From positions 434,001 through 498,000 of the forward strand of contig NZ_SLXS01000002.1 of assembly GCF_004340785.1 (NCBI RefSeq): a stretch of DNA of 64,000 nucleotides, written 5' to 3'. The stretch's first letter is position 1. Every line of letters begins with the position of its first letter. The notes beneath the pieces are model-generated. The model saw nothing but the letters and a program-made list of their open reading frames with translations. It was not told where the DNA came from and ran no database searches. The translations under genes were made by a program, and so were the position numbers. Below, piece after piece: positions 36,988 to 54,214 of the stretch. Source of the stretch: Tumebacillus sp. BK434. Lineage in GTDB: Bacteria > Bacillota > Bacilli > Tumebacillales > Tumebacillaceae.

Positions 36988-37779
36988 ATGTCGCTCGATC
37001 TGGTCTCACAGGTCAAAAGCATCATGCATTTTGTGGAAGAAACGTGCCCTGGCCTTCCGCTCCATGTGGAAAAGAGCGGGGCGGTCTCCGCAGCCCCTGC
37101 CCTCTTGGTGGAGCATGTGCGCTCACAGGCCGCTCCGATGACGGCGACGGCCGTGCAGGACTCGTCGTGGTGGAAGATCACCTTTTTCACGCCCGACTAC
37201 TGGGCGGGCAAACGGGTGGCAGGCGCGCTGAAAGACGCCTTGCAGCAAGAGCGCGAGGTGCCGGCGCGGCTGTTCGATTACAGCCACCCCGCCCCGGCAG
37301 CCGAAGCGGCGGCGACGGGCCGATTGCCCGCCGGCGTCTACCGCGTGCAGGTCAGCGGCGTCGGCCGCGACGGGGCGGAGAGCATGCCGTCCGCGCCGGT
37401 CGATGTGACGCTGGCCGAACCGGGCAGCATCCGGCTGGTCATCCCGCGCCTCGAGCACGGCATCGGCGTCTTTCGCAGCTACTGCGTCTATCTTGGCGGC
37501 AGGCTGGCGCTTGTGGCCGAGCAGGATGCGCTGGGCAACACCGTCTGCGCGGTGGACGAGCTGCCCGCACCTGACGCGGCCGCCCCGGTCGAGACGTCTG
37601 CCGTTCTGGAGCGCTACTTCTATGTAGAAGACGTGCAGAGCGTCACGTTCGGCGAGCGCGGCGAGCACGGCCTGTTCGAAGGCATCGTGCGGCTGAAGAC
37701 GCGGCTGACCGTGCCGAAGCGGGCGGAATTCGCTGAAAAAGTGCTTCAAGTTTCGGCGGCGCTAGCGGCTACTAAGTAG
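36988..37779 (+). CDS. Putative tail terminator / completion protein, first gene of the tail operon
   Basis: A 263-residue protein I do not recognise by name. It begins eight bases after GGGAGGTG and lies directly before a small gene and the sheath gene, where contractile-tail clusters carry a tail terminator or completion protein. Residues 1-105 look like a small alpha/beta tail-terminator-type domain. About residues 110-175 read like an Fn3/Ig-type beta sandwich (AGVYRVQVSGVGRDGAESMPSAP, cut here to the idea of strand-loop-strand). About 205-245 is another beta-rich stretch. The assignment comes from position and general character only. The frame has the GC-rich codon usage of its neighbours. 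Confidence 0.45.
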   Translation: MSLDLVSQVKSIMHFVEETCPGLPLHVEKSGAVSAAPALLVEHVRSQAAPMTATAVQDSSWWKITFFTPDYWAGKRVAGALKDALQQEREVPARLFDYSHPAPAAEAAATGRLPAGVYRVQVSGVGRDGAESMPSAPVDVTLAEPGSIRLVIPRLEHGIGVFRSYCVYLGGRLALVAEQDALGNTVCAVDELPAPDAAAPVETSAVLERYFYVEDVQSVTFGERGEHGLFEGIVRLKTRLTVPKRAEFAEKVLQVSAALAATK

Positions 37780-37792
37780 GGAGGTGAGAGGA

Positions 37793-38005
37793 ATGGAAGA
37801 CATCAACGAAATCCCGGAGCAGAGCCGCGAAGCGGTGTTTCAGCTCCAAGCGATCCTGGAGGCCGATTCGTACGAGGTGCTGAACGTTGCTCCGTACGTG
37901 TTGAGAGGCGCGGTCGTCCGCGCCGGGCTGTCGGCGAACGATCTCGTGACCATGACCCAAATCAAGCAGGCGATTCAAGCATTTTTGCAGGCTCCGGCAA
38001 AGTAA
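37793..38005 (+). CDS. Small conserved-position tail-cluster protein (unknown)
   Basis: A 70-residue mainly helical protein starting at the ATG at 37793, six bases after GGGAGGTGAG-type pairing; an in-frame GTG nine bases earlier overlaps that site and is less likely. It ends 33 bases before the sheath gene. PBSX carries a comparably short gene at this place (XkzB-like, from memory). No function can be read from the sequence. Confidence 0.7.
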   Translation: MEDINEIPEQSREAVFQLQAILEADSYEVLNVAPYVLRGAVVRAGLSANDLVTMTQIKQAIQAFLQAPAK

Positions 38006-38038
38006 AACGGAGCGATAACTCTCGGAGGTGAAGGTAAG

Positions 38039-39445
38039 ATGGCAGGAGGAAAATGGACGATTCTCGATACTCTCGATCCGTCTCAACGTTCTGGTTTCTA
38101 TATTAACTTTGTAGCAGATGCAGCAGCAGGTGTGCAGGCAGGCGTGCAAGGCGTCGTGGCGATCCCGGTCACTGCGCCGTGGGGTCCGGAAGGCCAGCTG
38201 GTGAAGATCACGTCCGATCTGGAATTTGCAGCGGCGTTCTCCCGTCTGGAGGAAGGCTCGGCGAAGAATCTCGTGCTGCAAGCGCTGAAAGGCGGCGCCA
38301 GCACCGTTCTGGCCTACCGCATGGCGGTCGGCGCAAAAGCTGCGACCGCGACCTTGAAGGCGGGCGCGACCGATGCGGTCAAAGCGACTGCCGTCTACAC
38401 CGGCGCATACGGCAACGAGCTGACCGTCTCGGTCACCGATGCGGTGGCAGGCGCGAAAGAATTCAAGATCTTCGACGGTGCGAAAGTGCTGGAGAAATTC
38501 AGCTTTGACGGCACTGCGACCGGCCTGATCGCAGCGGTGAACGGCCAGTCCCACTACGTGGAGCTGACCAAGCTTGCCGACGGCACGTTCACCACGGCGG
38601 TCAACGAGCCGCTGACGGGCGGTGCATCCGGTCAGGCGGTGACCAACGCCGAGTATTCGGACGCGCTTGCCGTGCTCGAAGGCCATGCGTATGAATTCAA
38701 CATTTTGACGATCGGTTCCGGCGAGGGCGACCTGCAGGAGACGGCAGCCGAATTCATCCGCCGACTGCGCGGCGAAGGCCACTTTGTGCAGCTCGTGCTC
38801 GGTCACAGCGCCAATGGCGATTTTGACGGTGCGAAAGCGGCAGCGCTCGGCCTGAACCACGAAGGCATCGTCTACCACAACATCGGCGTCAAGCTGGGCG
38901 GCAAGACCCTGACCCCGGCCGAGTTCTCCGGCCGCATCGCCGGCATGATCGCCGGTGCCGGCCCGGATGCCTCGATCACCTATGCGCTGATCGGCGGCAT
39001 CGACGGCCTGGCCAACCTGCTCAACCACAACCAAATCCGCGAAGCCAACAAAGCGGGTCTGGTCGCCGCCTTCTACGACGGTGAGACCTACCGCATCGAA
39101 AAAGGCATCAACACGCTGACGTCCTACTCCGGCACGCAGCATGAAGGCTATTCCAAGATCAAGAACATCTCCGTCCTCGATGCGATCGGCAACGCCCTGA
39201 CCATCTCGGCGAACAAAAACTACATCGGCAAAGTGCTCAACGACGAAGTCGGCCGCGATGCGCTGCTCGGCGCGATCCGCGCGGCGTTCGACATCTTTGA
39301 GCAGGGCCGCCTGATCCAAAAAGGCTCGCTGGTCGGCCTCGACCCGACCCGTCCGTCGGTCGGCGACCAAGTCTTCCTCGACCTGCGCGTCACTCCGATC
39401 GACGCGATGGAAGAAATCTATACAACGATCCGAGTGGGCCGCTAA
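38039..39445 (+). CDS. xkdK: Contractile tail sheath protein (XkdK-like)
   Basis: A 468-residue phage tail sheath protein, close to the size of PBSX XkdK. The N-terminus carries the family feature of a short arm leading to the segment GVVAIPVTAPWGP near residues 39-51, and the C-terminal part (GNALTISANK, then FDIFEQGRLI) matches the conserved sheath core that packs on the tube. The start ATG follows GGAGGTGA by eight bases. Sheath subunits form the contracting outer cylinder that drives the tube into the target. It is followed by the tube gene 35 bases downstream. Confidence 0.92.
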   Translation: MAGGKWTILDTLDPSQRSGFYINFVADAAAGVQAGVQGVVAIPVTAPWGPEGQLVKITSDLEFAAAFSRLEEGSAKNLVLQALKGGASTVLAYRMAVGAKAATATLKAGATDAVKATAVYTGAYGNELTVSVTDAVAGAKEFKIFDGAKVLEKFSFDGTATGLIAAVNGQSHYVELTKLADGTFTTAVNEPLTGGASGQAVTNAEYSDALAVLEGHAYEFNILTIGSGEGDLQETAAEFIRRLRGEGHFVQLVLGHSANGDFDGAKAAALGLNHEGIVYHNIGVKLGGKTLTPAEFSGRIAGMIAGAGPDASITYALIGGIDGLANLLNHNQIREANKAGLVAAFYDGETYRIEKGINTLTSYSGTQHEGYSKIKNISVLDAIGNALTISANKNYIGKVLNDEVGRDALLGAIRAAFDIFEQGRLIQKGSLVGLDPTRPSVGDQVFLDLRVTPIDAMEEIYTTIRVGR

Positions 39446-39480
39446 CGCGGTCCGCTCTCATTTCAGGAGGGTGATTCCAC

Positions 39481-39933
39481 ATGGCGATGAACGCAGGCTA
39501 CGCGATTAACGGTTCCTTCGGCACCTTGTACGAAGGCGATACCTTTATGGCGAATTGCAAAAAAGTAGAAGCAAAAGTAACGATCGACAAAGAGGAGCTC
39601 AAGCTCTCCTCGACCCGCCGCACCGGCTACAAATCGAAAGGCGTCAAAGGCGAAGGCACGATCGGCCTGTACAAAGTCGACTCCAAGTTCCTCGAGCGCG
39701 TCACCTCCTACATGAGCAACGAGCGCTCCGTGCAGTTCGTCGGCCAGCTCCTCGTCGTGCTCGACGATCCGGAGTCTCTGGGCGTGGAGAAAGTGCTGCT
39801 CAAGAACGTCAAGTTCTGGGAAGTCAACTTCGGCTGGACGCTCGACTCGATCCTCGAAGAAGAGATTCCGTTCACCTTCGAAGACATCCAGATCTCGTCG
39901 GCGATCAAAGGCGACGCGACGAAAGCCCGTTAA
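39481..39933 (+). CDS. xkdM: Tail tube protein (XkdM-like)
   Basis: A 150-residue protein of the XkdM/DUF2001 family, which forms the inner tube of PBSX-type tails. The beginning (YAINGSFGTLYEGD) and the repeated beta-strand pattern fit the family, as does the length. The ATG follows CAGGAGGGTG. A hairpin with a T-rich tail comes directly after this gene, so sheath and tube, the two high-copy parts, can be made in excess of what follows. Confidence 0.9.
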   Translation: MAMNAGYAINGSFGTLYEGDTFMANCKKVEAKVTIDKEELKLSSTRRTGYKSKGVKGEGTIGLYKVDSKFLERVTSYMSNERSVQFVGQLLVVLDDPESLGVEKVLLKNVKFWEVNFGWTLDSILEEEIPFTFEDIQISSAIKGDATKAR

Positions 39934-39960
39934 GTTTTGAGCATCGCGTGACTATATAGA

Positions 39961-40002
39961 GGCTGGGAAGGGAATTTCGGTTCCCGCCCAGCCATTATTT
40001 TT
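39961..40002 (+). terminator. Intra-operon hairpin, likely partial terminator after the tube gene
   Basis: GGCTGGG (39961-39967) pairs with CCCAGCC (39987-39993), and inside it GGGAA pairs with TTCCC around TTTCGG. ATTATTTTTC follows. Its position after sheath and tube suggests attenuation rather than the end of the operon. Confidence 0.75.
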
Positions 40003-40019
40003 CTAGGAGGCCACTAGCC

Positions 40020-40463
40020 ATGAAAAAAGAAGAAACGAAATCCCTCGCCATGACCCAAGATCTGTACGTCGACCCGCTCGAAGCGCTGCTGTCTGTCGAT
40101 GCGGACAAGTCCCCGGAAGACGATGTGTACTTGAAGCGCTTGAACGCGAAGTTTCGCGTGCGAGGCCCGAAGCAGTCTGAGTACAAAGCGACCTTGGAGC
40201 GCTGTGTGAAAGAGACGGGCAAAGGCAAGAACCTGCGCCGTTCGCTCGACACCGACATGTTCCAAAAGCTGCTCGTTCACACCTTCACCGTCTCCCCGAA
40301 CCTGGCCGATCCGAAGCTGGCAGAAAAATACGGCGCGCTGGTGGCCGAAGAAGTGGTCGAGAAAGCGCTGCTGCCGGGCGAAGTCGACAAGCTGGCGGAG
40401 CGCATCCTGGAGCTGGGCGGCTACGGTGAAGACGACGACCTGGTGGAAGAAGCAAAAAACTAA
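40020..40463 (+). CDS. xkdN: Tail assembly chaperone, zero-frame product (XkdN-like)
   Basis: A 147-residue protein of the XkdN family, in the place of the lambda gpG-type tail assembly chaperone between tube and tape measure. The ATG follows CTAGGAGGCC. Its last codons are GCA-AAA-AAC before TAA, which form the classic slippery heptamer A-AAA-AAC (40454-40460). The -1 frame after it is open for 53 codons, so a longer chaperone is almost certainly made by programmed frameshifting. Such chaperones coat the tape measure and recruit tube subunits. Confidence 0.88.
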   Translation: MKKEETKSLAMTQDLYVDPLEALLSVDADKSPEDDVYLKRLNAKFRVRGPKQSEYKATLERCVKETGKGKNLRRSLDTDMFQKLLVHTFTVSPNLADPKLAEKYGALVAEEVVEKALLPGEVDKLAERILELGGYGEDDDLVEEAKN

Positions 40464-40621
40464 TTCGCGACGGGCACGGCGAGGCGGTGCTCCTGCACGC
40501 GATCTTTATCGAAACGGGCCGTTTCCCTTCCGAGGTGCAAAAGCTACCTCGCGGGGAAAGGGCCTTTCTTTATGCCTCGATCATTGTGGAGATGGAAAAT
40601 CGTAGAAAAGCGATGAAGTAA
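40460..40621 (+). CDS. Frameshift extension of the tail assembly chaperone (-1 frame)
   Basis: Reading in the -1 frame after the slip at 40454-40460 gives 53 further residues (beginning LIRDGHGEAV and ending in a helical ENRRKAMK segment) to the TAA at 40619-40621, which overlaps the ribosome site of the tape measure gene. The fusion 40020-40621 would be about 200 residues. It has no good start codon or RBS of its own, as expected for a gpGT-type extension. Confidence 0.85.
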   Translation, partial: LIRDGHGEAVLLHAIFIETGRFPSEVQKLPRGERAFLYASIIVEMENRRKAMK

Positions 40622-40633
40622 GGAGGTGAATCT

Positions 40634-43600
40634 ATGTCAGGAGCAACGGATTCTGCGCAAAGGTTAGCGGAATTGACACCGAAAATGAACGCGCTTAACA
40701 ATGCAACCAACTATGCGGTTGGCAGCATGAGTAAACTCGCTTCCATTTCCTTTGATGCGCTCACTCAGTCGGCCAGCCGGCTGTTTGGTGTCATGAAAAG
40801 TGTCGGAGAACAAGCGGTTCAGGTGTCAATGAAGGTCGAAGTACAGGCGGCTACACTCAAAAAATATTATGAAAACCAACTGTACAACCAGTACAAGGCC
40901 CAGAATTTTAGCGATGACGACGCGAGGGATCTTTCAGGCGCACTAGCATCTGGAAAAGCGCAGAAACATTTTCAACAGGTAGAAGCGATCAGAGCCAACT
41001 CGCTGCTAGAAGAAGAGGATATTTTCAAAAGCCTCCTAATGGCGGAGCAACTGAAATCCCTGCAATCTGAAGCAGACATCAATAAAATGGTCGACATCGC
41101 TTCCGGCAGACAGACCGAGATGAAAAACGTGGTCGCAATGTTCCAACAGTTGGAGAATGGCGATTATTTTCGAGGATTTCAGAATGCTGTCGATCTCGGG
41201 GTCGACAAAGACGACCTAAAGAAGATATACAATTTTGAATTCAGCGGCCCTGGTGAGATGAACTTTGACGGTATCAAAGGTGCCGATAATTTGACCGATC
41301 AAGAAAAAAGCGCCAGAGCATCCCAGGCTGTTATGGAACTATTGGCCAAGAATAACATTGGCATGGCTGAGCAGCAGTCGAAGTCGATGTTGGGAACCTG
41401 GGGTACTATTCAACTGCGTCTCGAACAGATCTACCGACGCTCGATGGGGCTAGATGAGAGCGGCACGCCCAAGAAGGGCTCCATTTTTGATGACCTCTTG
41501 AAAGTCAGCAGCGCGGTGGAAAGTGCCTTGAAAAATGTCAGCAACTTGCAGGCGCTGACTGACCCCAACCTGAACATCTGGGAGAAACTCGGAGCGATCA
41601 TGATGTCGCTGAAAGACCAGTTTTCCAACTGGTGGTACAGCGGTGGTTCGGAAACTGTCGAGCAGATCGCAAATGACATGGGCAAAGCGTTAGGCACGGG
41701 CATTACCGCTATTTTCAGCTCCGATATTTCTGCGGATAAAAATGTGTTCGTCTCGCTGGGCTTGACGATCGTCAAGGGGCTTTTGAAAGGTTTTGTCGAA
41801 GGATTCGACCTTGGTGCGATCATGGACTCCACCTTTGGTAAAATTGCACTCCTTCTTGGCGGTGGATGGTTGATAAAGAAGATGTTCACTCCAAAAGGCG
41901 ACTTGCTTTCAGGTCTGATTTCAGGAGCAAAAGGTAAGCTCATTGACGGCGCCTTGTCCAAAATATTCAAAGATACCAACCACCCCAAGGAAATATCCGG
42001 GAAGATAGACACCGTTACGAGTCACCTTGCGACGATCGTCGGTCACCTGCAAAAGATCGTCGAATGCGTTTGCCGACATTGCGATTGCAAGCAGGCAATG
42101 AGTGGAGAATTGTCGGGCGATTCCAATAGCAATCGAAGGAATAGACGCAATAGAACTCGTAATCCAGTTGGGAATCTGCGCAGGAGAGTCGAATCTGACG
42201 ACAGAAGGATCGCTCGAAATAATAGACGTGTCAATCTTGACGAAACGGTAAGGCGGACTGCTGGAAGGGACTCCGCAACAAGCAGAGCAAACGCCAGGTT
42301 CAATGCAGGTGGTACTTCTGGCACCAACGCAGGGGGCAACGTAAGGAACCAGACAGGCGGTACACCAAGCCTCCAGAGATGGGGAAATACGGGTGCTCCT
42401 CCAAGTCTTCAAAGCTGGGGCAATACCGGTGCTCCGCCAAGCCTCCAGAGATGGGGCAATACCGGAGCACCTCCAAGCGTCCAAAGGTGGGGCAATTCAG
42501 GCAGTACCCAAAGCATCCAAAGTTTGAGCAATCCTAGCGCTGCTCCAAGTATCCAGAGATGGAACATGGGAGCTCCCCAAACAAGTCCTTCCACATGGGG
42601 CAATGCTACGACAAACGCAATGTCCGGTGCAATGGCAAGCCCAAGGGCTAATCCAGGGACGAATGCAGGAGGCACAGCAACGAACCAAGCATTGGCAAAC
42701 GCAAGGGCCACGACAGGAATCCAGGCAGGGGGCAATGCACCGACCAGTGGATTAACGAGTCCCGTGACTCCTGCAGGAACGAATGCAGGAGGCACTGCAA
42801 CGACCAGTGCCATGGCAAACGCAAGAGCCGCTACCCGAACGAATGCTGTGCCCGGCGTGACGAGCCAGGCAAGTCCCCATGCGGGACCGCGGGTGGACAT
42901 CCCCGAAGGCGGAAAAAGCTCGCTGCTGAAATCGTTTGCCAAAAAAGGGATCAGACGCATCCCCGGTGTGAGCACCGCATTGTCTGTCTTTGACATCTTT
43001 AAGGCAAAGGACAAGGCTGGCGCAACGATCAAAGCGGCCGGTTCCGGACTGGGAGGCTGGGGTGGAGCCGCAGCAGGCGCTGCGCTTGGGACGGCGATCT
43101 TCCCTGGCGTGGGTACAGTTGTCGGTGGCCTGATCGGCGGTATTGCGGGGGCAATGACCGGCGAAAAGGTCGGAGAAATCACATCGAAGAAACTTGATAC
43201 AGAAGGATTTACCGCTCGCAGGAGTGCGAGTAGACTTTCCCCTTCGCGCGTCACGCCATCGTCTGGAACTGGCAGTATGGCGAGGGATTACAGAAGCTCG
43301 CTGAACAGCATGGAATCGTACAGCAGCGGGTTCCAGACATCGCTGACCAACGGCATGGGAACAACATTCTCCGGTCTGCCGGTGGTGGCGAACCAAGGCA
43401 TGCTCGGGCTGCAGTCAACCGTTGGCGGTGGCTTCAATCGGATGATGGCACAGAGCAATACGCAGTTGTCCGGCATGAGCGGGATGTTTGGCACCAATTT
43501 TAATACGGCGAGCAACACGGCTGTGGCGTCGGTTGCGCCGCTTCCGGGAAAAATCGGCGGCATGCTGAACACAATTCCAGGGCTCGTCAATACTAGCGGA

Positions 43601-44089
43601 ATGAGCTCGATCGGCGTTGGGATCGTCGGCAGCATCTCTGCCGGAATGCTCACCGCGCTCTCCGGGTTGCCTCCGATCGCGCAGTTACTGCTTGGCAATG
43701 CGGCAAACGGCCTGCAGCAAAGCAGTTCCAAAGCTCCGGTCCACTCATCAGACGAGCAGGAAGTGATGAACCGCCGAAAATATTATGCCTATCAATACCA
43801 TGGCGGCGGCCTCGTCGAAAATGAAGGCTGGGCGATCCTCAAGCGCAAAGAGATGGTGCTCGACGAGAACCTCTCCTCCTTCATCCGCACCTCGGCGGCC
43901 ACCTCGACCGGCCAGGGCGTATCCGGCAACAGCAGCGGGCCGGTCAACATCCAGATCGGCGCACTGGCGAACACGCTGCAAGTCCGCGAAGAGGCGGACA
44001 TCCACAACATCGCGGCTGCGCTGTCCAATGAGCTGAAGCGCGTGCTGACCAACCAAGGCGTCTACAGCCAGGCGGAGGTGGCGAGATAA
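40634..44089 (+). CDS. xkdO: Tail tape measure protein (XkdO-like)
   Basis: A 1151-residue protein, the longest of the tail cluster and placed after the chaperone, as tape measures are. The N-terminal 470 residues are largely helical with a hydrophobic stretch near 400-420. Then come a CVCRHCDC cluster (about 478-485), an Arg/Asn-rich basic stretch (about 490-560), 12-residue repeats (578-643), Gly/Ala/Asn/Thr-rich repeats (about 660-740), a glycine-zipper hydrophobic segment (about 805-853) and a C-terminal region ending in NIQIGALANTLQVREEADIHNI-like helix-forming sequence. Base composition drops relative to the neighbours in the first two thirds, which suggests exchange. It sets tail length and may be ejected into the target. 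Confidence 0.88.
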   Translation: MSGATDSAQRLAELTPKMNALNNATNYAVGSMSKLASISFDALTQSASRLFGVMKSVGEQAVQVSMKVEVQAATLKKYYENQLYNQYKAQNFSDDDARDLSGALASGKAQKHFQQVEAIRANSLLEEEDIFKSLLMAEQLKSLQSEADINKMVDIASGRQTEMKNVVAMFQQLENGDYFRGFQNAVDLGVDKDDLKKIYNFEFSGPGEMNFDGIKGADNLTDQEKSARASQAVMELLAKNNIGMAEQQSKSMLGTWGTIQLRLEQIYRRSMGLDESGTPKKGSIFDDLLKVSSAVESALKNVSNLQALTDPNLNIWEKLGAIMMSLKDQFSNWWYSGGSETVEQIANDMGKALGTGITAIFSSDISADKNVFVSLGLTIVKGLLKGFVEGFDLGAIMDSTFGKIALLLGGGWLIKKMFTPKGDLLSGLISGAKGKLIDGALSKIFKDTNHPKEISGKIDTVTSHLATIVGHLQKIVECVCRHCDCKQAMSGELSGDSNSNRRNRRNRTRNPVGNLRRRVESDDRRIARNNRRVNLDETVRRTAGRDSATSRANARFNAGGTSGTNAGGNVRNQTGGTPSLQRWGNTGAPPSLQSWGNTGAPPSLQRWGNTGAPPSVQRWGNSGSTQSIQSLSNPSAAPSIQRWNMGAPQTSPSTWGNATTNAMSGAMASPRANPGTNAGGTATNQALANARATTGIQAGGNAPTSGLTSPVTPAGTNAGGTATTSAMANARAATRTNAVPGVTSQASPHAGPRVDIPEGGKSSLLKSFAKKGIRRIPGVSTALSVFDIFKAKDKAGATIKAAGSGLGGWGGAAAGAALGTAIFPGVGTVVGGLIGGIAGAMTGEKVGEITSKKLDTEGFTARRSASRLSPSRVTPSSGTGSMARDYRSSLNSMESYSSGFQTSLTNGMGTTFSGLPVVANQGMLGLQSTVGGGFNRMMAQSNTQLSGMSGMFGTNFNTASNTAVASVAPLPGKIGGMLNTIPGLVNTSGMSSIGVGIVGSISAGMLTALSGLPPIAQLLLGNAANGLQQSSSKAPVHSSDEQEVMNRRKYYAYQYHGGGLVENEGWAILKRKEMVLDENLSSFIRTSAATSTGQGVSGNSSGPVNIQIGALANTLQVREEADIHNIAAALSNELKRVLTNQGVYSQAEVAR
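42365..42562 (+). repeat. 5.5 tandem copies of a 36-bp coding repeat in the tape measure gene
   Basis: Units beginning CCAAGCCTCCAGAGATGG start at 42365, 42401, 42437, 42473, 42509 and 42545 (last one half). Each encodes a 12-residue unit of the type PSLQRWGNTGAP. The later copies are more diverged. Confidence 0.9.
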
Positions 44090-44817
44090 TGTCGTACGGA
44101 ACGGGTCAGATCGGCCCTTTTTTGTTGACCTATTGGGATCAGGTCGGCGTGAGCAGGACACTGGCGTTTCCTGTTGCGCCGGCCCAGATCAGTGTCAAAT
44201 ACGCTCATGAGTTTCAGGAGTCGAGCGTGCTCGGCCTCGGCCAGACCGCCTTTCGCGGCGGCGATCAGCTGGCGGAGCTTAGCTTCTCCAGCTTTTTCCC
44301 CCGCGATTATGACCGGACGCTCGTCGACACCTGGGCGTACAGTTCCCCGGAATCGTTGAAATCGCCGCAGGAATTCGAGCGTATCATCCACGAGATTCGC
44401 CAGGTCGGCAAACCGTCGCGCCTGACGATCGGCGGAACGTATTTCAACGCCGATGTGATGATCCGCACCTTCGATGTCGAGCATCGCGGCGGCGAACCGG
44501 GCGATGTCTATTTCACGATCACGTTCAAGAAACACCGCACGTTGACGGTGAAGAAAACAGACCCCAAGCAAGGCACTTCCTCGGGCAGCGAACGCCCGCC
44601 GAGCGCCCCGGCCCCAAAAACGCATACCGTCGTCTCGGGGGATACGCTGTGGGCGCTGGCCAAGCGCTATTTGGGCAACGGAGCCAAATACATGGAGATC
44701 TACAACCTCAACACAGGCGTGATCGGCAAAGACCCCAATCTGATCCGCCCCGGCCAAGTTTTGAAGCTCCCGCCGTCTGCCGCAACTGGCGCGCCGAGCG
44801 TCGCCGGGGCGAAATAG
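44089..44817 (+). CDS. xkdP: LysM-bearing tail/baseplate protein (XkdP-like)
   Basis: A 242-residue protein whose ATG overlaps the tape measure stop (TAATG). Residues 1-150 form a beta-rich baseplate domain. A Pro/Ser linker is followed by a LysM domain at about 178-228 (HTVVSGDTLWALAKRYLG, then NLIRPGQVLKLP). LysM binds peptidoglycan, so the protein probably helps position the hub on the cell wall. The order after the tape measure and the size match PBSX XkdP. Confidence 0.9.
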   Translation: MSYGTGQIGPFLLTYWDQVGVSRTLAFPVAPAQISVKYAHEFQESSVLGLGQTAFRGGDQLAELSFSSFFPRDYDRTLVDTWAYSSPESLKSPQEFERIIHEIRQVGKPSRLTIGGTYFNADVMIRTFDVEHRGGEPGDVYFTITFKKHRTLTVKKTDPKQGTSSGSERPPSAPAPKTHTVVSGDTLWALAKRYLGNGAKYMEIYNLNTGVIGKDPNLIRPGQVLKLPPSAATGAPSVAGAK

Positions 44818-44832
44818 TAGGGAGGGACGAAC

Positions 44833-45864: not shown

Positions 45865-45892
45865 TGAGAAGGAATAAAGAGGAGGGAAGACG

Positions 45893-46231
45893 ATGGGAGT
45901 GGGTGAATTGGCCGGGCTGATGGCAGACATCGCCAACCGGCAAGTCGGGGCGCAACTGCTGCCGGTCGAGCTCGGCACCATTCTGGAAGACATGGTCAAC
46001 GGCGGCGATCTGCGCATGAAGCCGGACTCGATGAAAATCGATCTGTCCTACAAGCACAAAGAACTGCTCGTAGCTGACAACCTGATCTTGCGCAAAGGCG
46101 ACCGCGTCGTGGCGGTCGGGATCAACGGCGGCCAGAACTACGCCATCCTCTGCCGCCTCAGCAAAAATCCGGCCCGGGCTGTGATTGGCAACGGCCAGTA
46201 TCGGGCCGGGGATCGGACGGTGGTCGAATGA
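45893..46231 (+). CDS. xkdR: Baseplate protein (XkdR/DUF2577-like)
   Basis: A 112-residue beta-rich protein after the hub gene, in the place of the DUF2577/XkdR component. It shows a small beta barrel pattern (LPVELGTILEDM, then LILRKGDRVVAVG). The ATG follows GAGGAGGGAAG, and its stop overlaps the next start (ATGA). Confidence 0.8.
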   Translation: MGVGELAGLMADIANRQVGAQLLPVELGTILEDMVNGGDLRMKPDSMKIDLSYKHKELLVADNLILRKGDRVVAVGINGGQNYAILCRLSKNPARAVIGNGQYRAGDRTVVE

Positions 46232-46680
46232 GCATCATGCCACAATTTCCTGCGCTGGACAACGCGTTTGACCTCGACGCGGCCGGGCAGGCAGCCGCAA
46301 ACACGGGCAACAACCCGGTGTTTGATTATCAACGAGGCGAGTTCGTGTTCACCGCGACCGGACGAGTGGCGGTGTCCGAGGGGCTGGAGAGCCTGAAGCA
46401 CTGGGCGAAAAAAGCGCTGCTCACCGCCCGCGACCGCTTTCTGGTCTATACGACCCAGTACGGCAACGAGGCACACGAACTGATCGGGATCGATCTGCCC
46501 GATGAGATTTTGTTTATGGAGCTGCAGCGCAACATCACCGAAGCGCTGATCTATGACGCGCGGGTGACAGCCTGCACCGATTTTCGCTTTGAGCGTCTGG
46601 CGGACCGCGTGATGTGCGACTTCACGCTGATCACGCCGCTTGGCGCCGAGGCGATGCAGTATACATTGGAGGTGAGCTAG
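46228..46680 (+). CDS. xkdS: Baseplate wedge protein (XkdS/DUF2634, gp25-like)
   Basis: A 150-residue protein of the DUF2634 family, the PBSX counterpart of the gp25/W baseplate wedge. The conserved segment is RVAVSEGLESLKHWAKKAL near residues 49-67. It overlaps the previous gene by 4 bp, and its 3' end carries the GGAGGTGA site of the next gene, so translation is coupled. Confidence 0.87.
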   Translation: MSIMPQFPALDNAFDLDAAGQAAANTGNNPVFDYQRGEFVFTATGRVAVSEGLESLKHWAKKALLTARDRFLVYTTQYGNEAHELIGIDLPDEILFMELQRNITEALIYDARVTACTDFRFERLADRVMCDFTLITPLGAEAMQYTLEVS

Positions 46681-46681
46681 C

Positions 46682-47845
46682 ATGAGTGAAAAAGATCTGT
46701 CGGCCGTATTTCCCTATCAGGATCAGACGGAGGAAGCGATTCGCCGGCGGATGCTGTCGGCGGTCGATCCTTCGTGGGACCAGTCGGAAGGCAGCTTCAT
46801 CTGGGATTCGCTGTCGCCGGCCGCCATCGAGTTTGCGCTCGCCTACATCCGGGCCAAGGAAGTGCTGCAGTGGGGCTTTGCCACCACCACTTTCGGCCCG
46901 TACCTCGACGCGCGCGGCGCAGAGCGCGGGATCTTTCGCCGCCCGGCCCAGAAAGCGGTAGGTGAAGTAACGGTGGAAGGCGCAGCGGGCGTCTACATCC
47001 CCGAAGGCACGATGTTCGCCACAGAAGCGGACGAGCTGAGCGATGAGAACCTGCAGTATTTCGTGACGACCGCAGACGGCACGATTCCGGGCAACAAAAC
47101 GCTGACGCTGCCTGTGGCATGCACGAAAGAGGGGAGCACCGGCAACGTGCTGCCCCAAAAGATCACCATCGCCGTCAGCAAGATTTCCGGTCTGACCAAG
47201 ATCGACAATGCCGACGCGATGAGCGGAGGGGTGGATGAAGAGACGGATGAGGCCTTTTTGAACCGCTATCTGAAGCATGTGCGCAACCCTGGCGCGTCGG
47301 GCAACATCGCGGACTACATCCGCTGGGCGCAAGAGGCGGACGCTTCGGTCGGCAAAGTGCAAGTGAGTCCGATTGCAGGTCAGCCTGGCCACGTGCAAGT
47401 CTTGCTCGTCGATTTGGAAGATCGGCCGGCCACTGCCGGGCTGATCAAAAAAGTGCAGGACTACATCGATCCGAACAGCGCGGGCGGCGGCGCGGGCATG
47501 GCGCCGATCGGAGCGAAGATTCATGTCGAGACGCCGACGCAGTTGGTGCTGTCGCTCCGCCTCCGACTGACCGTCATTCGCGGGTACGAGGAAGCCGGGG
47601 TGAAGCGGGCGGTGGTGCAAAACATCTCCAAATACTTGCGCACGCTCGTGCTCAACCCGGAGGATCGCTTCGTTCGCCTGTCCAAAGTGGGGCAGGCGAT
47701 CATGATGACCGAAGGCGTGCAGGACTTTGACCAGTTGACGATGGCGGTCGACGGCGTGCCGGTCACACAAAACTTGGAGATCGCGGCCGATGCGATGGTC
47801 GTGCTTGCGGAAGCGAACGTCGAATGGCTGCAGGCAGGTGAGTGA
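46682..47845 (+). CDS. xkdT: Baseplate J family protein (XkdT)
   Basis: A 387-residue baseplate J/gp47-like protein. The N-terminus has the typical QTEEAIRRRML motif and EGSFIWDSLSPAAIEFA segment, and the middle shows the GGVDEETDEAFLNRYL signature of the family. Together with XkdS and XkdU it forms the wedges that trigger sheath contraction. It overlaps the upstream frame of the next gene. Confidence 0.92.
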   Translation: MSEKDLSAVFPYQDQTEEAIRRRMLSAVDPSWDQSEGSFIWDSLSPAAIEFALAYIRAKEVLQWGFATTTFGPYLDARGAERGIFRRPAQKAVGEVTVEGAAGVYIPEGTMFATEADELSDENLQYFVTTADGTIPGNKTLTLPVACTKEGSTGNVLPQKITIAVSKISGLTKIDNADAMSGGVDEETDEAFLNRYLKHVRNPGASGNIADYIRWAQEADASVGKVQVSPIAGQPGHVQVLLVDLEDRPATAGLIKKVQDYIDPNSAGGGAGMAPIGAKIHVETPTQLVLSLRLRLTVIRGYEEAGVKRAVVQNISKYLRTLVLNPEDRFVRLSKVGQAIMMTEGVQDFDQLTMAVDGVPVTQNLEIAADAMVVLAEANVEWLQAGE

Positions 47846-47847
47846 CG

Positions 47848-49056
47848 ATGAGCGAACGTGAACGTGACGCCGTCACCCTGGCCAAGCTGCAGACGCTGAT
47901 GTCGTATGCCCCCACTCACTACGGGCGTTCCGAACTCTATCAGCAGTTGATGGAAGCGAACGCCGTGGAGTCGGTCGCGATGCGCAAGATGCTGGAAGAC
48001 GTGTTCGCCCAATTTTTCGTCGAGACGGCCACGTGGGGACTTGTCTTCTGGGAAACGGAGTTTGGCCTGATCACCAACGAGTCGCTGTCGTATCAGATGC
48101 GCCGGGCCCTCGTGCTGCAAAAGATGCGCGGGACGGGCACGATGACCAGCGAAACGATGGCTGCTATCTTGAGCTCGTACGGCGCGCGGACGGCGGAGAT
48201 CGATCAGGTGTTCGAAAGCTACAAGTTTGGCGCTGTGCTGGTCGATTTCATCTTGTCGCCAAAACGTCCCGTCGACGACGTCCACGCCAGCATCCGCGAG
48301 ACGATCAAAACGGTGCGCCCGGTGCATCTGGACTTTTGGATCGAATACCGGGAGCATGTCGCCGAGTCGTTCCGCGCCTGGTACAAAATGCGCACCGGGC
48401 GGGAGTATGCGCACAGCGATACGGTGCGCAGCGAGATGACCACACAGAATGAAGAGATGAAATTCGGGCAGACCGAAAAAAATCTGTTCCATTTGAACCA
48501 CTCGACCATCGGCAATACCATGTTTGTTTCCAGCGAACTAAACGATGAGTCATCCACGTTCTTAGAGCGCTCGTTGGATCATGAACACTACGACATGCAA
48601 GGGAATCTTGGCCAGGCATTTCTTCTCAATGGCTCTCAGGTCAATGGAGCGAACCGGACGCTGCACGCGGCGGTAAGCGCTGAAGGAAGTTCGGAGCTGA
48701 GGCAGACAAGCAGTGAGCAGATGGGCTTGATTGCAGACGGGAAGCCGGCGGTGCTTTTCGGTGTAAACAGCTGGGAAGTTCCATTTCGAGCATGTGCAGA
48801 TGCATACCGTTTCTCCTTTTCGAGACAGCCGGCTCGGCTGTTTCCAGAACGATTGGAAGAGCAGGCTGGAATGGAGCAGACACTGGCTGTTATCGAAGCG
48901 CATCCGCTTCAAGTTTTCGTGAGCCAAGCGGCAATATCAGTAGGGATGCTCAACGCAGCAGACGAAATGGATGTTGCGAAAGAGACCTGCAGTTGCGTGT
49001 TGTATCGGGCCGACCAAGACGGCGTGGAAACAATCTTGGAACAAAGAGCCCTGTAA
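47848..49056 (+). CDS. xkdU: XkdU-like baseplate protein with a C-terminal extension
   Basis: A 402-residue protein. Residues 1 to about 195 match XkdU/DUF2313 (KMLEDVFAQFFVETATWGLVFWETEFGL, shortened here to its FVETATWGL core), which is the full length of PBSX XkdU. The remaining 200 residues have no counterpart in XkdU and are AT-richer, and may add a tail-tip or fibre-attachment domain. The ATG at 47848 (AGGTGAGTGACG upstream) is preferred to the GTG at 47842 that overlaps the previous stop. The stop codon lies in the loop of a hairpin. Confidence 0.85.
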   Translation: MSERERDAVTLAKLQTLMSYAPTHYGRSELYQQLMEANAVESVAMRKMLEDVFAQFFVETATWGLVFWETEFGLITNESLSYQMRRALVLQKMRGTGTMTSETMAAILSSYGARTAEIDQVFESYKFGAVLVDFILSPKRPVDDVHASIRETIKTVRPVHLDFWIEYREHVAESFRAWYKMRTGREYAHSDTVRSEMTTQNEEMKFGQTEKNLFHLNHSTIGNTMFVSSELNDESSTFLERSLDHEHYDMQGNLGQAFLLNGSQVNGANRTLHAAVSAEGSSELRQTSSEQMGLIADGKPAVLFGVNSWEVPFRACADAYRFSFSRQPARLFPERLEEQAGMEQTLAVIEAHPLQVFVSQAAISVGMLNAADEMDVAKETCSCVLYRADQDGVETILEQRAL

Positions 49057-49077
49057 CGTCAGGGCTCTTTCATTTTC
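49043..49077 (+). terminator. Hairpin over the stop codon of the XkdU-like gene
   Basis: AAAGAGCCCT (49043-49052) pairs perfectly with AGGGCTCTTT (49061-49070), and CATTTTCC follows. The T-run is weak, so it probably attenuates transcription between baseplate and fibre genes. Confidence 0.65.
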
Positions 49078-49095
49078 CTAAGGGAGGTTGACCTC

Positions 49096-49635
49096 ATGAA
49101 ACATGAAGAAACAAAAGTAAAACTGGCGATCGGCGATGTCACGATCCAAATGTACAAGGCAGACGGGACGGTGCTCAAAAAACAGGAGCTGCGCAACCTG
49201 ATTGTCAAACAAGCGAGCGTTCTGATGGCCCGCCGAATGGCGCCGAGCGAGAATGTCGCCAACGGCTTCCAGTATCTCGCCCTCGGTAAAGGCGTTGGCA
49301 CAGGCAATCTACAGGAACCGCAGGTGGAAAATCCGGATCTGTCAGCGCTGCGGGATGAAGTGTATCGCAAGCCGATCACGACGTGGCGCTATTTGAACAG
49401 CGACGGCAGCGTTTCTGCCGCTCCGACCCATATCTTGGAACTTACAACTGAGATTTTGGAGGGTGAAGGTGTGCCGCAGGAGGCGGAATCTGTGCCGTTT
49501 ACGGAGATGGGGCTGTTCGGTGGCGATGCGTCGGGTGCTAAAGATTCTGGCTTCATGTTCAACCATAAAGTGTTCCCGGTCTGGAACAAGCCGATAGATG
49601 CCCGCTTGCGCATCGTCTGGAAGATTACCTTCTAA
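49096..49635 (+). CDS. Tail-tip protein of unknown role
   Basis: A 179-residue beta-rich protein between the baseplate and fibre genes. The start follows AAGGGAGGTTGACCTC. Recognisable features are an N-terminal strand-rich stretch (VKLAIGDVTIQMY), a segment LRNLIVKQASVLMARRM and a C-terminal FPVWNKPIDARLRIVWKITF-like strand, a pattern common in small phage tail-fibre connector or collar proteins. The function is inferred from place only. Confidence 0.7.
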   Translation: MKHEETKVKLAIGDVTIQMYKADGTVLKKQELRNLIVKQASVLMARRMAPSENVANGFQYLALGKGVGTGNLQEPQVENPDLSALRDEVYRKPITTWRYLNSDGSVSAAPTHILELTTEILEGEGVPQEAESVPFTEMGLFGGDASGAKDSGFMFNHKVFPVWNKPIDARLRIVWKITF

Positions 49636-49649
49636 AGGAGGGCTGAGAC

Positions 49650-51299
49650 GTGACCTATACGCCAAGATTCACCCGACCGCCGCAGGGCAATTATGACCCG
49701 GACAAAGCGTTCACTCAAATCCGGGCGGGCAGTGAGGCATATCTGCTGGAAGATGAAGTGAACGAAATGCAAGCGATCCTTCAAGAACAGGCTCGAAGTG
49801 TAGCACGAGACCTGTATCGGGACGGATTAAAAGAGCGACTGGTCGTCAAACGGGACACGAGCCGGGCGAACGTCTATCGCATCGCTCCGTTTGAAGTGAT
49901 GGCAGACGGCGTTAGCGTCCGCGTAACGGGTATCAACACAACAGGCACCCCGCGAACGGAAGCGGATGGCGAAGATAATTTGATCCTGATTCCAGCACCG
50001 CCGTTCGACAGTGAGGAGGAGCGCTACGACCCGGTGCTGCTTGAAGTGTTTGAGGAGGAAGTGCATGCCGGTCAAACGTTGTACCGACACGGAGCCCAAT
50101 CTAGCGATTTCACCATACCGAATGACCTCTGCGATAACCGGGTCGGCGCGGAAACTTCGCGCCGGATGCAAATGAAATCGGTATTGCGTGTGGTGGAGGA
50201 TGACCTGAGTGACTGGCAATATGACCTGAACGGCAGCCCTCTGACCCATTCGGAAGGCTGGGTGTTCCGCTCAGCTGCGGGGCGCACTGTGATTTGGCTG
50301 TTCACTCTTGCTTATTTGCCGGGTCAACAAGGTAATGAGCATGTCTTCGAGATGGCGCGATTGTCAAGCCTGAGGGATAGCGTCATTCCCTCTGGTTTCA
50401 TCAACACGCAGAAACTGGCGTACCAAGCAGTGACGTCAGATAAAATGGCCCCCGAAGTCGTCACCGCGGAAAAGCTGTCGAACGGCGCTGTAACGAGCAG
50501 TAAACTTGCCGCGAATGCGGTGAAAACCACGCATCTTGAAAATGCTGTGGTCACCGTCGACAAAATCGGCACAAATGCGGTCACGACATCGAAGATCGCC
50601 GACGGCCAGGTGACGATCGAGAAACTGGCGAACACAGCGATGAATACGTTGAATGACAGGATGGGACTGTCAGTTCCATCAGATGGATTTATTCCAATTC
50701 TGCGTTTCTTTCAGTGGTGGTCGGCGATCGGTAATTTTCCGGTCAAATGGGCGGGCGGACATTCGGCAGCAGAATGGGGAAGTCAAGTACTGCAAAAAGA
50801 GGGGCAAGCCTGGAAAGTTTTCGAAGGCATTACCTATATGAGCAGAACACATGCCACTTGGCAGGATAAAAAGATTCACATGTACATGGGGAACGCTGGC
50901 GCCTTAGCCGACAATGTCTCCATGTATTGTTTACAGAACATTACAAACACGACGGCAAGCGTTACGCCCAACGCGAACTATTCCAGTTATGCTGGTCAAA
51001 ACGCGGCGGCAAGCGCATCGGTTGCGTACAAGGTTTTTGATCCGGCAGGGAAGCCGGAATTGACGGACAATTTCACGGAAACGGTTACGCTAACCACTAC
51101 GAACATCGGCAGCGGTGGCTGGACGGTTCAAGTGCCAGCAGGACATGTGATGATTTTTATCTTGAAGTCCAGCCCATATTTGTCCTCAGGAAATCTGTAC
51201 TACAACATGCATGAGTTGCTTGCCCCGATAAGCCAAATGCCAAACTTTGCACCCCATCTGCCTACGTATCGCCGTCTCTTAAACGGTAAATGGGACTAA
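49650..51299 (+). CDS. Tail fibre protein 1
   Basis: A 549-residue protein with a GTG start 6-8 bases after AAAGGAGGG. Residues 1-230 form an N-terminal attachment region (PPQGNYDPDKAFTQ, then LLEDEVNEMQAI) that is clearly related to the next fibre gene and resembles DUF4815-type fibre bases. About residues 250-335 hold a run of 10-residue pseudo-repeats (AVTSDKMAP, AVTSSKLAA, AVTTSKIAD and so on), typical of trimeric fibre shafts. The last 200 residues are a beta-rich tip, presumably the receptor-binding part, AT-richer than the shaft. Confidence 0.85.
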   Translation: MTYTPRFTRPPQGNYDPDKAFTQIRAGSEAYLLEDEVNEMQAILQEQARSVARDLYRDGLKERLVVKRDTSRANVYRIAPFEVMADGVSVRVTGINTTGTPRTEADGEDNLILIPAPPFDSEEERYDPVLLEVFEEEVHAGQTLYRHGAQSSDFTIPNDLCDNRVGAETSRRMQMKSVLRVVEDDLSDWQYDLNGSPLTHSEGWVFRSAAGRTVIWLFTLAYLPGQQGNEHVFEMARLSSLRDSVIPSGFINTQKLAYQAVTSDKMAPEVVTAEKLSNGAVTSSKLAANAVKTTHLENAVVTVDKIGTNAVTTSKIADGQVTIEKLANTAMNTLNDRMGLSVPSDGFIPILRFFQWWSAIGNFPVKWAGGHSAAEWGSQVLQKEGQAWKVFEGITYMSRTHATWQDKKIHMYMGNAGALADNVSMYCLQNITNTTASVTPNANYSSYAGQNAAASASVAYKVFDPAGKPELTDNFTETVTLTTTNIGSGGWTVQVPAGHVMIFILKSSPYLSSGNLYYNMHELLAPISQMPNFAPHLPTYRRLLNGKWD

Positions 51300-51311
51300 A
51301 TTGTGCTTGGA

Positions 51312-51338
51312 GGAGGGGAACTTCCCCTCCCTTTTATT
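51312..51338 (+). terminator. Hairpin between the two fibre genes
   Basis: GGAGGGGAA (51312-51320) faces TTCCCCTCC (51322-51330), effectively a 7-bp GC-rich stem with a 5-base loop, followed by CTTTTATT. It could be a partial terminator. Confidence 0.7.
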
Positions 51339-51353
51339 AGGAGGTGACCTGGA

Positions 51354-52328
51354 ATGACGAAACATCCTGTATTCAATCGGAACCCGAAAGGAAATTTCAA
51401 TAAAGACAATCAGTTTACGCAGGTATTGATCGGCTCTGACGCCGTGTTGCTCGAAGATGAGCTGAATGAGATGCAAGCGATCCAAAGTAGCCGCGTTGAT
51501 GAACTGTACGATCTTCAGGACTACGACGGTGGAAAAACAGGGCTGGATTCCAACTTTGTCTATGGGGAGACATACGCTCATGAAATTCCCGCTTTCACTG
51601 CAAAAGTCGCGGGGCACATGATTCGTGTGTCTGGCTATGGAAACACGGGACAGTTTTCAACTGTACCAGAAGACAGCAATATTGTGTGCTTGGCACCCAT
51701 GCCGGAAGGACAAACTGAGCAAAGCGACCTGGTCTTTTTGGAAGTGAAGGAAGAAGTTCTGACGGGACACGAACCGCTTTTTCAACACGGCAATTTGGAT
51801 GCTAACTATCGATTGGATAATAAGTTGATCGATCCTCGCGTTGGACATGAAACAGCTCGTCGCCTCCAACTTCGAAGCAAACTGCGTTTGTTGCCAAACG
51901 TTGGTGAACTTCCAGCTAATCAACCGTGGCCATCGGCAATTTTTGCACTCGACTCTGCACTAGACCCATTAGGCGGACGCTATGTGTATGACCAGAATGG
52001 CAGATGGCGCTCAGAGAACGGCTACTATGCGATCCCCATCGCCACAGGGGTGAAGTACAAAGATCGCTTATATGGTATTACTACAGCTTTGTGGCCTGAG
52101 TTGATTAAAACCTACCTGACATACAGTGAAAGCGGTGATCTTATACAGGTCGATACTCGGTTAGGAGGAGTCTTTGTGCTGAGCAGCACAAAGATCACTC
52201 ATCGAGCCGAAGGGATCGATAAGGTTACAAATGTAAAGGACGGACGGGTGACAACTTGGCAATGCGCTTATGGATCGGTACCAGGCGGAGGAACTGGGAT
52301 GTATGCAGTGTTTAAAAAGGAATCATAA
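51354..52328 (+). CDS. Tail fibre protein 2 (paralogous base, different tip)
   Basis: A 324-residue protein whose first 190 residues align with fibre 1 (PVFNRNPKGNFNKDNQFTQ, LLEDELNEMQAI, RVGHETARRLQLRSKLRL against the matching parts), while its C-terminal 130 residues differ and lack the shaft repeats. It begins eight bases after AGGAGGTGACC. Two fibres with the same base and different tips imply either two receptors or alternate adsorption proteins. Confidence 0.82.
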   Translation: MTKHPVFNRNPKGNFNKDNQFTQVLIGSDAVLLEDELNEMQAIQSSRVDELYDLQDYDGGKTGLDSNFVYGETYAHEIPAFTAKVAGHMIRVSGYGNTGQFSTVPEDSNIVCLAPMPEGQTEQSDLVFLEVKEEVLTGHEPLFQHGNLDANYRLDNKLIDPRVGHETARRLQLRSKLRLLPNVGELPANQPWPSAIFALDSALDPLGGRYVYDQNGRWRSENGYYAIPIATGVKYKDRLYGITTALWPELIKTYLTYSESGDLIQVDTRLGGVFVLSSTKITHRAEGIDKVTNVKDGRVTTWQCAYGSVPGGGTGMYAVFKKES

Positions 52329-52351
52329 TTACGCCTAGAGGAGGGAGCTTC

Positions 52352-52735
52352 ATGTTACAAATCGTGACCGGAAGAGTGACAGTCGGAGGCGGTGTGCGGC
52401 TTGCGAGGGAAGCGCAGCGACCGATTCTTGTGACAGACACCAAAACAGTCTCAACTGCAGGGACGGTCCTTGCAACGCTTACGGTACCGGCCGGGCAGAC
52501 CTACCACCTCTCTGAAGTCAGCGTTGGCGGTGACACCGCGAACCGCATTGATGTTGTCATTCAGGGAAAAACGGTGCACACCATGTTCTACCCGGGGTAT
52601 GGGATGCACAACAAAACTTACGCAGCGATGCCAAAAGCATATGGCGGCGAGACGATACAAGTGATCAGCCGGCAAGCGACAGCCGGGATGCACACGGCAA
52701 CGATTATCGCTCACAAAGCAACTGAATTGTTCTAA
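52352..52735 (+). CDS. Small beta-rich tail-associated protein (unknown)
   Basis: A 127-residue protein after the second fibre gene, starting at an ATG nine bases after GAGGAGGGAG. It is beta-rich with no membrane segment (TGTVLATLTVPAGQTYHLSEVSV is a strand pattern, abbreviated in meaning). It may be a fibre tip or a fibre chaperone. I do not recognise the family. Confidence 0.7.
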   Translation: MLQIVTGRVTVGGGVRLAREAQRPILVTDTKTVSTAGTVLATLTVPAGQTYHLSEVSVGGDTANRIDVVIQGKTVHTMFYPGYGMHNKTYAAMPKAYGGETIQVISRQATAGMHTATIIAHKATELF

Positions 52736-52779
52736 CATGTAGGGCTGAAGTGAGTTCCAACAAGCGAGGTGAAACACCC

Positions 52780-53103
52780 ATGACGATCAACATCGAAGCG
52801 CTGAAACAGGGGTTGGATGATGTGAAGGAGCGGCAGTTGCAGTTTGAAAGCGAAGTGAAAGACGAACTGAGCAAAATCAAAGACACCCTGGTCGCCCAGG
52901 CGGTGGCCAACTCCCGCAATGAGACGATTCTCTCCTCGCTGGTCGAGGAGATCAAGAGCTTTCGCACCGAGTTTATGACCCTGCTCACCGAAAGCGTGAA
53001 GAGCACGAACAGCCAAAACAACGGCTGGCACGATCTGGCGGTCAAAGTGGTGATGAGCATCGTCGCCCTCGCTGCGGCTGTTTACGGAGGGTCCAAGCTA
53101 TGA
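52780..53103 (+). CDS. xhlA: XhlA-like membrane-associated lysis protein
   Basis: A 107-residue protein with a long helical, coiled-coil-prone N-terminal part (EALKQGLDDVKERQLQF) and one membrane helix at the C-terminus (about 85-104), the layout of XhlA. In PBSX, XhlA acts with a holin to let the amidase reach the wall. The ATG at 52780 follows GCGAGGTG by 9 bases and is preferred over an in-frame ATG 30 bases earlier. It overlaps the amidase gene (ATGA). Confidence 0.85.
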   Translation: MTINIEALKQGLDDVKERQLQFESEVKDELSKIKDTLVAQAVANSRNETILSSLVEEIKSFRTEFMTLLTESVKSTNSQNNGWHDLAVKVVMSIVALAAAVYGGSKL

Positions 53104-53837
53104 AGATCACCGACTTGCTCCTGACCAATCCGGACGCCCGCCCGCGCCGCCAGATCACGCCCAAAGGCGTCGTCCTGCACTGGGTCGCCAACCCGGGCAC
53201 CACCGCGCGCAACAACCGCGACTATTTTCAAAACGGGGTCAGCGCCGCCAAGCAGAACTGGGCATCGGCGCACTATGTGGTCGACGACAAGGAGATCATC
53301 CGCTGCATCCCTGAAACAGAGATGGCCTACCACGTAGGAGCGACTTCCTACAATAAAACTGCGCTGCAGCGCTTCGCTACATCCTACCCGAATGACTGTC
53401 TGATCGGCATCGAGCTCTGCCATGCCGACTGGGACGGTCATTTTGGCAAAGGCACCTGGGCGCAGGCGGTCGAGCTCGTCGCCGACATCCTGCGCCGCTG
53501 GCAGCTGCCCGTCACGGCGATCGTGCGCCACTACGACATCACCGGCAAGGAGTGTCCGCGCCTGATGGTGCGCGACCCGGCTGTGTTCGCCGCCTTCAAG
53601 GCGGATGTCGAGCGCATCTTGCATCCGCCGGCCCCCGCTCGCAAACCGGGCCCGGCGCCTGACGTTCCGGCCGACCACTTCGCGGCCGCAGCGGTCGCTT
53701 GGGCGTACCAGCACAAGATCTCGGCGGGCACCGACGCCGCGAAGCATTTTGCACCCGACCGGCCGATCACCCGCGCCGAAATGATCGTGCTGCTCAAGCG
53801 CACCTATGACCTCCTGAAAGGAGGTGAATCCCAATGA
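53100..53837 (+). CDS. N-acetylmuramoyl-L-alanine amidase (Amidase_2) with an SLH domain
   Basis: A 245-residue endolysin. Residues 1-175 are an Amidase_2 domain with the zinc ligands visible as His27 (VVLHWV), His144 and Cys152 (RHYDITGKECPR) and a glutamate at 105 (IGIEL). It cuts the MurNAc-L-Ala bond. A Pro/Ala linker leads to one S-layer homology domain at 192-236 (WAYQHKISAG, then FAPDRPITRAEMIVLL). SLH domains bind secondary cell wall polymer, so this one should direct the enzyme to the host wall. It overlaps both neighbours by 4 bp, giving the lysis order XhlA, amidase, holin. Confidence 0.92.
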   Translation: MKITDLLLTNPDARPRRQITPKGVVLHWVANPGTTARNNRDYFQNGVSAAKQNWASAHYVVDDKEIIRCIPETEMAYHVGATSYNKTALQRFATSYPNDCLIGIELCHADWDGHFGKGTWAQAVELVADILRRWQLPVTAIVRHYDITGKECPRLMVRDPAVFAAFKADVERILHPPAPARKPGPAPDVPADHFAAAAVAWAYQHKISAGTDAAKHFAPDRPITRAEMIVLLKRTYDLLKGGESQ

Positions 53838-54214
53838 CCGAATGGCTTTCCTACCTCCAAGAGCCCCTCGTGCTGCTGTGCATCGCCGGGGCTATTGTTG
53901 TGCTCATGCTGTTCCTCGACGCCAACCACAACACGCACCGCCTGCGCCAGGCCCTCTTGCAGCTGATGCTGCAGGCGGAGAAAAAGGCGGCGCAAGGCCA
54001 CTACGGCACCGTCAAAGGCTCCGACCTGATGGACCTCGTCGTCCAAAAGGCGGTCGCCGCCGTCGTCCCGCTCCTGCCGTTCTATCTGCGCCCCTTCTTC
54101 ACCGAGAAGTTCGTTCGCCACATGGCCGAGCTGCTCTATGAAAAAGCGCACGACTATCTCGATGACGGGCAGCTCAACGCTTCGTTCGTCCTTGAGGAGC
54201 GCGATCAGGCGTAG
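53834..54214 (+). CDS. Putative holin (LLH-type)
   Basis: A 126-residue protein with one N-terminal membrane helix (about 10-28, PLVLLCIAGAIVVLMLFL) and a long amphipathic segment containing QAEKKAAQGHYGTVKG near residues 46-61, which resembles LLH-family phage holins. It is the last gene of the tail and lysis operon and is followed by a strong terminator. GGAGGTGAATCCCA precedes the ATG. Confidence 0.72.
   Translation: MTEWLSYLQEPLVLLCIAGAIVVLMLFLDANHNTHRLRQALLQLMLQAEKKAAQGHYGTVKGSDLMDLVVQKAVAAVVPLLPFYLRPFFTEKFVRHMAELLYEKAHDYLDDGQLNASFVLEERDQA

Follow-up and report, generated by a model that had tools for sequence, protein, structure and literature searches.

We analysed a stretch of 64,000 nucleotides from Tumebacillus sp. 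BK434 (the window). Pfam and PHROGs searches recovered contractile tail genes arranged as in PBSX between 36988 and 54214, and, judged from its sequence, this segment makes up a complete contractile tail operon of the PBSX type. The preliminary description had proposed a contractile tail cluster at these positions, and the searches confirmed it gene by gene. Its boundaries also coincided exactly with those of the tail and lysis operon, with a terminator-like stem following at 54226-54249, but they fell short of the whole unit, which continues to 56522 with five conserved genes. All features described below between 36988 and 56522 lie on the + strand. The cluster is flanked upstream by a DJ-1 gene (36298-36879), and its downstream edge is formed by an IS3-type element (about 56547-57842) with imperfect inverted ends (17/24). 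This element was apparently inserted in the terminator stem separating the cluster from vioB, and it is absent from the corresponding site in a congener, G002. A large NRPS gene block lies further upstream (1124-36047); the NRPS adjoining the cluster is 85% identical in a second congener, G001, and G002 has a different one.

The first gene, g1 (36988-37779), encodes a candidate tail terminator or collar protein into which an Ig/FN3-like domain is inserted (about residues 105-200). It is positioned two genes ahead of the sheath gene, where relatives have Phage_tail_terminator_8, and its residues 10-87 gave a weak in-register profile match to Phage_tail_terminator_8 proteins (E 0.001-0.003, Prob 10-22%). 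Its identity in G002 is 75%. A head-closure role for g1 was rejected, since the PHROG Hc3 match was limited to the inserted domain and neither a phage homologue nor a solved structural relative was found. We suggest that g1 may cap the headless tail, in a role comparable to that of the diffocin collar CD1362 (PMC10996793). The small gene directly 5' of the sheath, g2 (37784-38005), is conserved in G002, and positional equivalents of 57-116 aa were present in every relative examined.

The tail sheath (38039-39445; XkdK/CD1363-like) was identified by phrog_279 (2e-88), by Pfam and by solved sheaths including diffocin CD1363, and the tail tube (39481-39933; XkdM/CD1364-like) by PF09393 (8e-32), PBSX XkdM (1e-18) and CD1364 (6e-14). 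The XkdN-like tail assembly chaperone (40020-40463; PF08890, 2e-22) carries a -1 frameshift site, A_AAA_AAC (40454-40460), followed by an in-frame extension of 53 codons (40454-40621), whose stop (40619-40621) lies just 5' of the ribosome site of the tape measure gene. In G002 the slip site is identical, but a G run differs by 1 nt and so shifts the extension; this difference may be a sequencing error or a loss. An ORF at 40426-40605 was rejected as a conserved gene; it lies in the +1 frame, and the genuine feature there is the chaperone's -1 extension. The tape measure protein (40634-44089; 1151 aa) was assigned from its position and a weak, low-complexity match to tail-length PHROGs. Its counterpart in G002 has 1281 aa and is 36% identical.

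The baseplate genes follow. A LysM protein (44089-44817; phrog_380, 6e-62; Pfam) corresponds to the XkdP/CD1367-like tube initiator and is thus a structural protein rather than a lysis enzyme. The baseplate hub (44833-45864; XkdQ/CD1368-like; PF24032, 2e-62) is 343 aa long and matches residues 15-309 of the 581 residues of CD1368, ending where the C-terminal hydrolase of diffocin would start. Next come an XkdR-like baseplate protein (45893-46231; 93% in G002, with a weak match to PBP180 ORF25, 0.005), a gp25/XkdS-like sheath initiator (46228-46680; PF10934, 9e-26), an XkdT/CD1371-like baseplate J protein (46682-47845; PF04865, 6e-59; CD1371, 6e-33) and a Gp48/XkdU-like baseplate protein (47842-49056; PF10076, 2e-24). 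The conserved protein at 49096-49635 (phrog_5417, 3e-19; 78% in G002) is possibly a baseplate-fibre adaptor. AlphaFold models of this protein and of g1 had mean pLDDT values of 41 and 53, respectively, and the former was of no use as a structure model. Two tail fibres were identified, fibre 1 (49650-51299) by tail-fibre PHROGs and fibre 2 (51354-52328; 45% in G002) by an N-terminal domain common to fibre 1. The N-terminal portion of about 210 aa is conserved relative to G002, and the middle and C-terminal part of fibre 1 has diverged. A small protein (52352-52735; 65% in G002) was considered fibre-associated from its position.

The operon ends with genes for release. An N-acetylmuramoyl-L-alanine amidase with an SLH domain (53100-53837; PF01510, 7e-23; PF00395, 1.5e-8) is the endolysin. 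It is preceded by a coiled coil with a C-terminal TM segment (52780-53103; 89% in G002), an XhlA/BhlA-like holin candidate, and followed by a protein with one N-terminal TM segment (53834-54214; 81% in G002), a holin or lysis-accessory candidate; both were recognised by hydropathy. The full lysis set claimed earlier thus holds for the amidase by homology, while the single-TM proteins at 52780 and 53834 are holin candidates by topology alone. No head, packaging or integrase gene was found between the DJ-1 gene and the IS, so that the profile searches upheld the reported lack of portal, terminase, capsid and integrase in this interval.

Behind the operon lie five small genes (54346-56522) that are kept in G002. 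The operon terminator (54226-54249) has a 9-pair stem and a T run and is conserved in the congener, as is the subsequent promoter, TTGCAG-N17-TATATT, with a weaker LexA-like box, GGAACATAAGTTTG (54295-54308; whole element 54259-54308). If two mismatches are allowed, the window has no more matches to the LexA pattern than expected by chance, and this box is judged by its position and conservation only. The small protein that follows (54346-54654) is conserved in the DNA alignment with the congener and gave no match in an NCBIfam search. Next is a sigma-A-like promoter, TTGTAC-N17-TAAAAT, with a LexA box, AGAACACACGTTCG (54744-54757; whole element 54714-54757), 5' of a gene for a sigma-70 family factor (54803-55390; TIGR02937, 50.4 bits against a cut-off of 42.9; phrog_1740, 1.3e-11; 76% in G002). 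This box reads AGAACATACGTTCG in the congener; box and promoter are conserved there, and the surrounding spacer far less so. The pattern AGAACNNACGTTYG has three perfect matches in the 4.65 Mb genome, 5' of recA, lexA and the sigma gene, where about one would be expected under uniform base composition; the dinB box has one mismatch to the LexA pattern. Control of the sigma gene by LexA is thus strongly supported at the level of predicted sites. The remaining genes of the block encode a conserved small protein (55505-55822), a sigma region-4 HTH protein that is a regulator candidate (55852-56238; PF08281, 6e-9; 85% in G002) and another conserved small protein (56235-56522).

We propose the sigma factor as the activator of the tail operon. 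Its gene is linked to the tail genes and conserved together with them, and PBSX offers a parallel, which suggests that the factor may drive their transcription. No conserved sigma-A-type promoter 5' of 36988 was recognised by eye, scanned promoter-like sites were not above chance, and no sigma target promoter was found before 36988. No Xre-type gene was recognised in the cluster. The sigma factor was rejected as an Xpf homologue; its region-4 HTH alone aligns with PBP180 Xpf. Literature searches joining tailocin, LexA and sigma factor returned nothing beyond a meeting report.

We compared the cluster with known systems. In pairwise comparison with PBP180, the sheath, tube, chaperone, XkdP, XkdQ, XkdR, XkdS, XkdT, XkdU and amidase aligned one to one, and the defective prophages PBSX and PBP180 of Bacillus share the tail and baseplate genes in identical order. 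The XkdK-XkdU order and homology of the PBSX type are present, whereas its head and terminase genes (chromosome-filled heads) and its Xre/Xpf control were not recognised. PBP180 has terminase, portal and capsid, none of which occurs in the Tumebacillus cluster, and PBSX-type regions have Xre-family regulators. Expression of the PBSX late genes requires Xpf, a sigma-like factor (PMC8347963, PMC10141391), whereas the Tumebacillus sigma gene lies behind the operon, is LexA-boxed and has only the region-4 HTH in common with PBP180 Xpf.

The R-type diffocin of Clostridioides difficile (CD1362-CD1372) resembles the cluster, which is known from its genes, in being headless and contractile and in gene order. 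It has homologous sheath, tube, tube initiator, hub and triplex, and solved diffocin relatives exist for five cluster proteins (CD1363, CD1364, CD1367, CD1368 and CD1371). Diffocin is SOS-induced (PMC6088184, PMC4453579); its regulator was not found in the literature searched. The two differ in the hub, which has a C-terminal hydrolase in diffocin only, in g1, which cannot be recognised as the CD1362 collar, and in the LexA-boxed sigma gene behind the operon, a feature of the Tumebacillus cluster. The phage tail-like bacteriocin of Brevibacillus laterosporus 1821L/1951 likewise combines a PBSX-like tail with a spore-former host and is mitomycin-induced, but it has other lysis genes (a BhlA holin and an XlyA-type amidase) and a terminase gene nearby; the text consulted reports no LexA-sigma relay (PMC9406221).

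We consider it highly probable that the cluster is a domesticated, SOS-induced R-type tailocin of the PBSX type, contractile and headless. At the gene level, it has the complete contractile tail and baseplate set, fibres for target recognition and lysis genes for release (the amidase with SLH domain by homology, the holins by topology). Head and packaging genes are absent from the cluster and, for five Pfam models, from the genome. At the sequence level, the LexA box of the linked sigma gene points to DNA-damage control, and the genes are maintained by selection and not decaying. The earlier tailocin reading is supported by the local lack of head genes, by purifying selection in comparison with G002 and by outside relatives that also look headless, and the LexA box lends support to the mitomycin C induction proposed with it. 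We therefore regard the cluster as a genuine, maintained tailocin candidate of ordinary anatomy, with a notable SOS link. Most likely, it adds a new example to a known type of weapon, a harpoon against related bacteria that works like PBSX and diffocin.

In the proposed mechanism, DNA damage would activate RecA, and cleavage of LexA would release the sigma gene at 54803. The sigma factor, perhaps together with the region-4 HTH protein at 55852, would guide RNA polymerase to a promoter lying 5' of 36988. The products would then form particles and kill: the 1151-aa tape measure would set a tail length of about 170 nm at the usual 0.15 nm per residue, and g1 would cap the tail in place of a head. 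The amidase, aided by the single-TM proteins, would lyse the producer. The fibres would bind related cells, upon which the sheath would contract and the tube breach the envelope, dissipating the membrane potential as in diffocins. We are evenly divided on the more specific proposal of a two-step SOS relay, in which no phage repressor is recognised and host LexA alone would gate a dedicated sigma factor for transcription of the tail and lysis genes, together with a terminator cap bearing an Ig-like insert. The predicted LexA-to-sigma relay would offer a simple account of how a host takes over the control of a captured phage tail.

An unlikely alternative is that the cluster is a contractile injection system serving its owner in self-lysis, development or effector delivery, and not a bacteriocin. 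Streptomyces has headless contractile systems with roles of this kind, and the tape-measure lumen could hold cargo. However, no effector gene was recognised within the operon, and the presence of an amidase in the cluster and the divergence of its fibres are in keeping with release and a choice of targets. In the same genome, moreover, the eCIS lineage has a separate cluster (G000:C1:182907-207677). The AAA ATPase and T4 gp19-type tube characteristic of the Afp/PVC type are found there, along with the only other PF04984 sheath of the genome.

An intact prophage would have integrase, head and packaging genes, none of which was found in the interval from DJ-1 to the IS. We attach very little probability to a decaying, unproductive prophage remnant from which the head genes have been lost. 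Its phage ancestry is plain, and an IS lies at the cluster edge. The DNA is also in IMG/VR, as a viral contig of 19,251 bases (UViG_2795386103_000001) starting at g1 with 100% identity; by its length this contig would equal window positions 36988-56238. The cluster is thus classed as viral in an automated catalogue, probably wrongly. Against decay, G002 has the whole orthologous cluster beside the same vioB-like gene, plus the five downstream genes. None of the 23 genes compared has an internal stop in either species, and dN/dS is 0.05-0.33 for genes without synonymous saturation (both fibres and 52352 are saturated). Because the congener keeps the orthologous cluster with all genes open and dN/dS at or below 0.33 where measurable, the locus is not a decaying prophage; the nearest relatives outside the genus look headless too. 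Among the steadiest parts are the tube (97% identity to G002) and lysis genes (81-89%), and the most changed are the tape measure (36%) and fibres (45%). Steady tail and lysis parts with diverged fibres would fit a constant machine with changing targets.

It is scarcely credible that the cluster supplies only the tails of a split phage, a satellite or a gene transfer agent with heads encoded elsewhere. Heads could lie in unsequenced gaps, as the 32 contigs of the assembly amount to 97.85% completeness, and a contractile prophage-like region found separately in G002 does include genes of head type. The sheath of that region is only 30% identical, however, and the SPP1-type portal, HK97 portal, HK97 capsid, Terminase_3 and Terminase_6N models, which gave matches in control genomes, had none in the whole 4.65 Mb assembly. 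The wider-genome check for capsid genes suggested earlier was therefore negative for these five head and packaging models.

Returning to the tailocin reading, G001 provides an empty site of about 1.3 kb where the window has 36190-57904, with no trace of the cluster at its vioB site. Its vioB is 91% identical to that of the window, versus 80% for G002, and loss in G001 is the simplest reading. To our knowledge, few tailocins from Gram-positive spore-formers are well studied, and the orthologous cluster, diverged fibres and empty site in a congener make a natural comparison available. The empty site (G001:C1:804454-805499) holds an unrelated gene region with a RTAGNQAVQRML motif, which we take to be reminiscent of eCIS cargo proteins.

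Of 398 genomes in the class, 93 had sheath relatives, whereas g1 was limited to the two congeners; a sheath scan of the genome_contigs collection found no relative. The nearest sheaths outside the genus (32-35% identity) belong to family f8 (G057, G098, G118, G148, G167 and G259), in which g2, sheath, tube, chaperone, LysM, wedge, baseplate J and Gp48 genes occur in shared order. No recognised head gene was found upstream of the sheath in these clusters. They differ in having an ArpU-type regulator upstream in both of those tested (G057 and G118). Headless PBSX-type tails thus recur in the class, with control that apparently differs. In G259, two contractile tail clusters lie in tandem (G259:C1:1365961-1393511) with sheath starts 11.5 kb apart, and similar paired sheaths were seen in several other genomes of this family.
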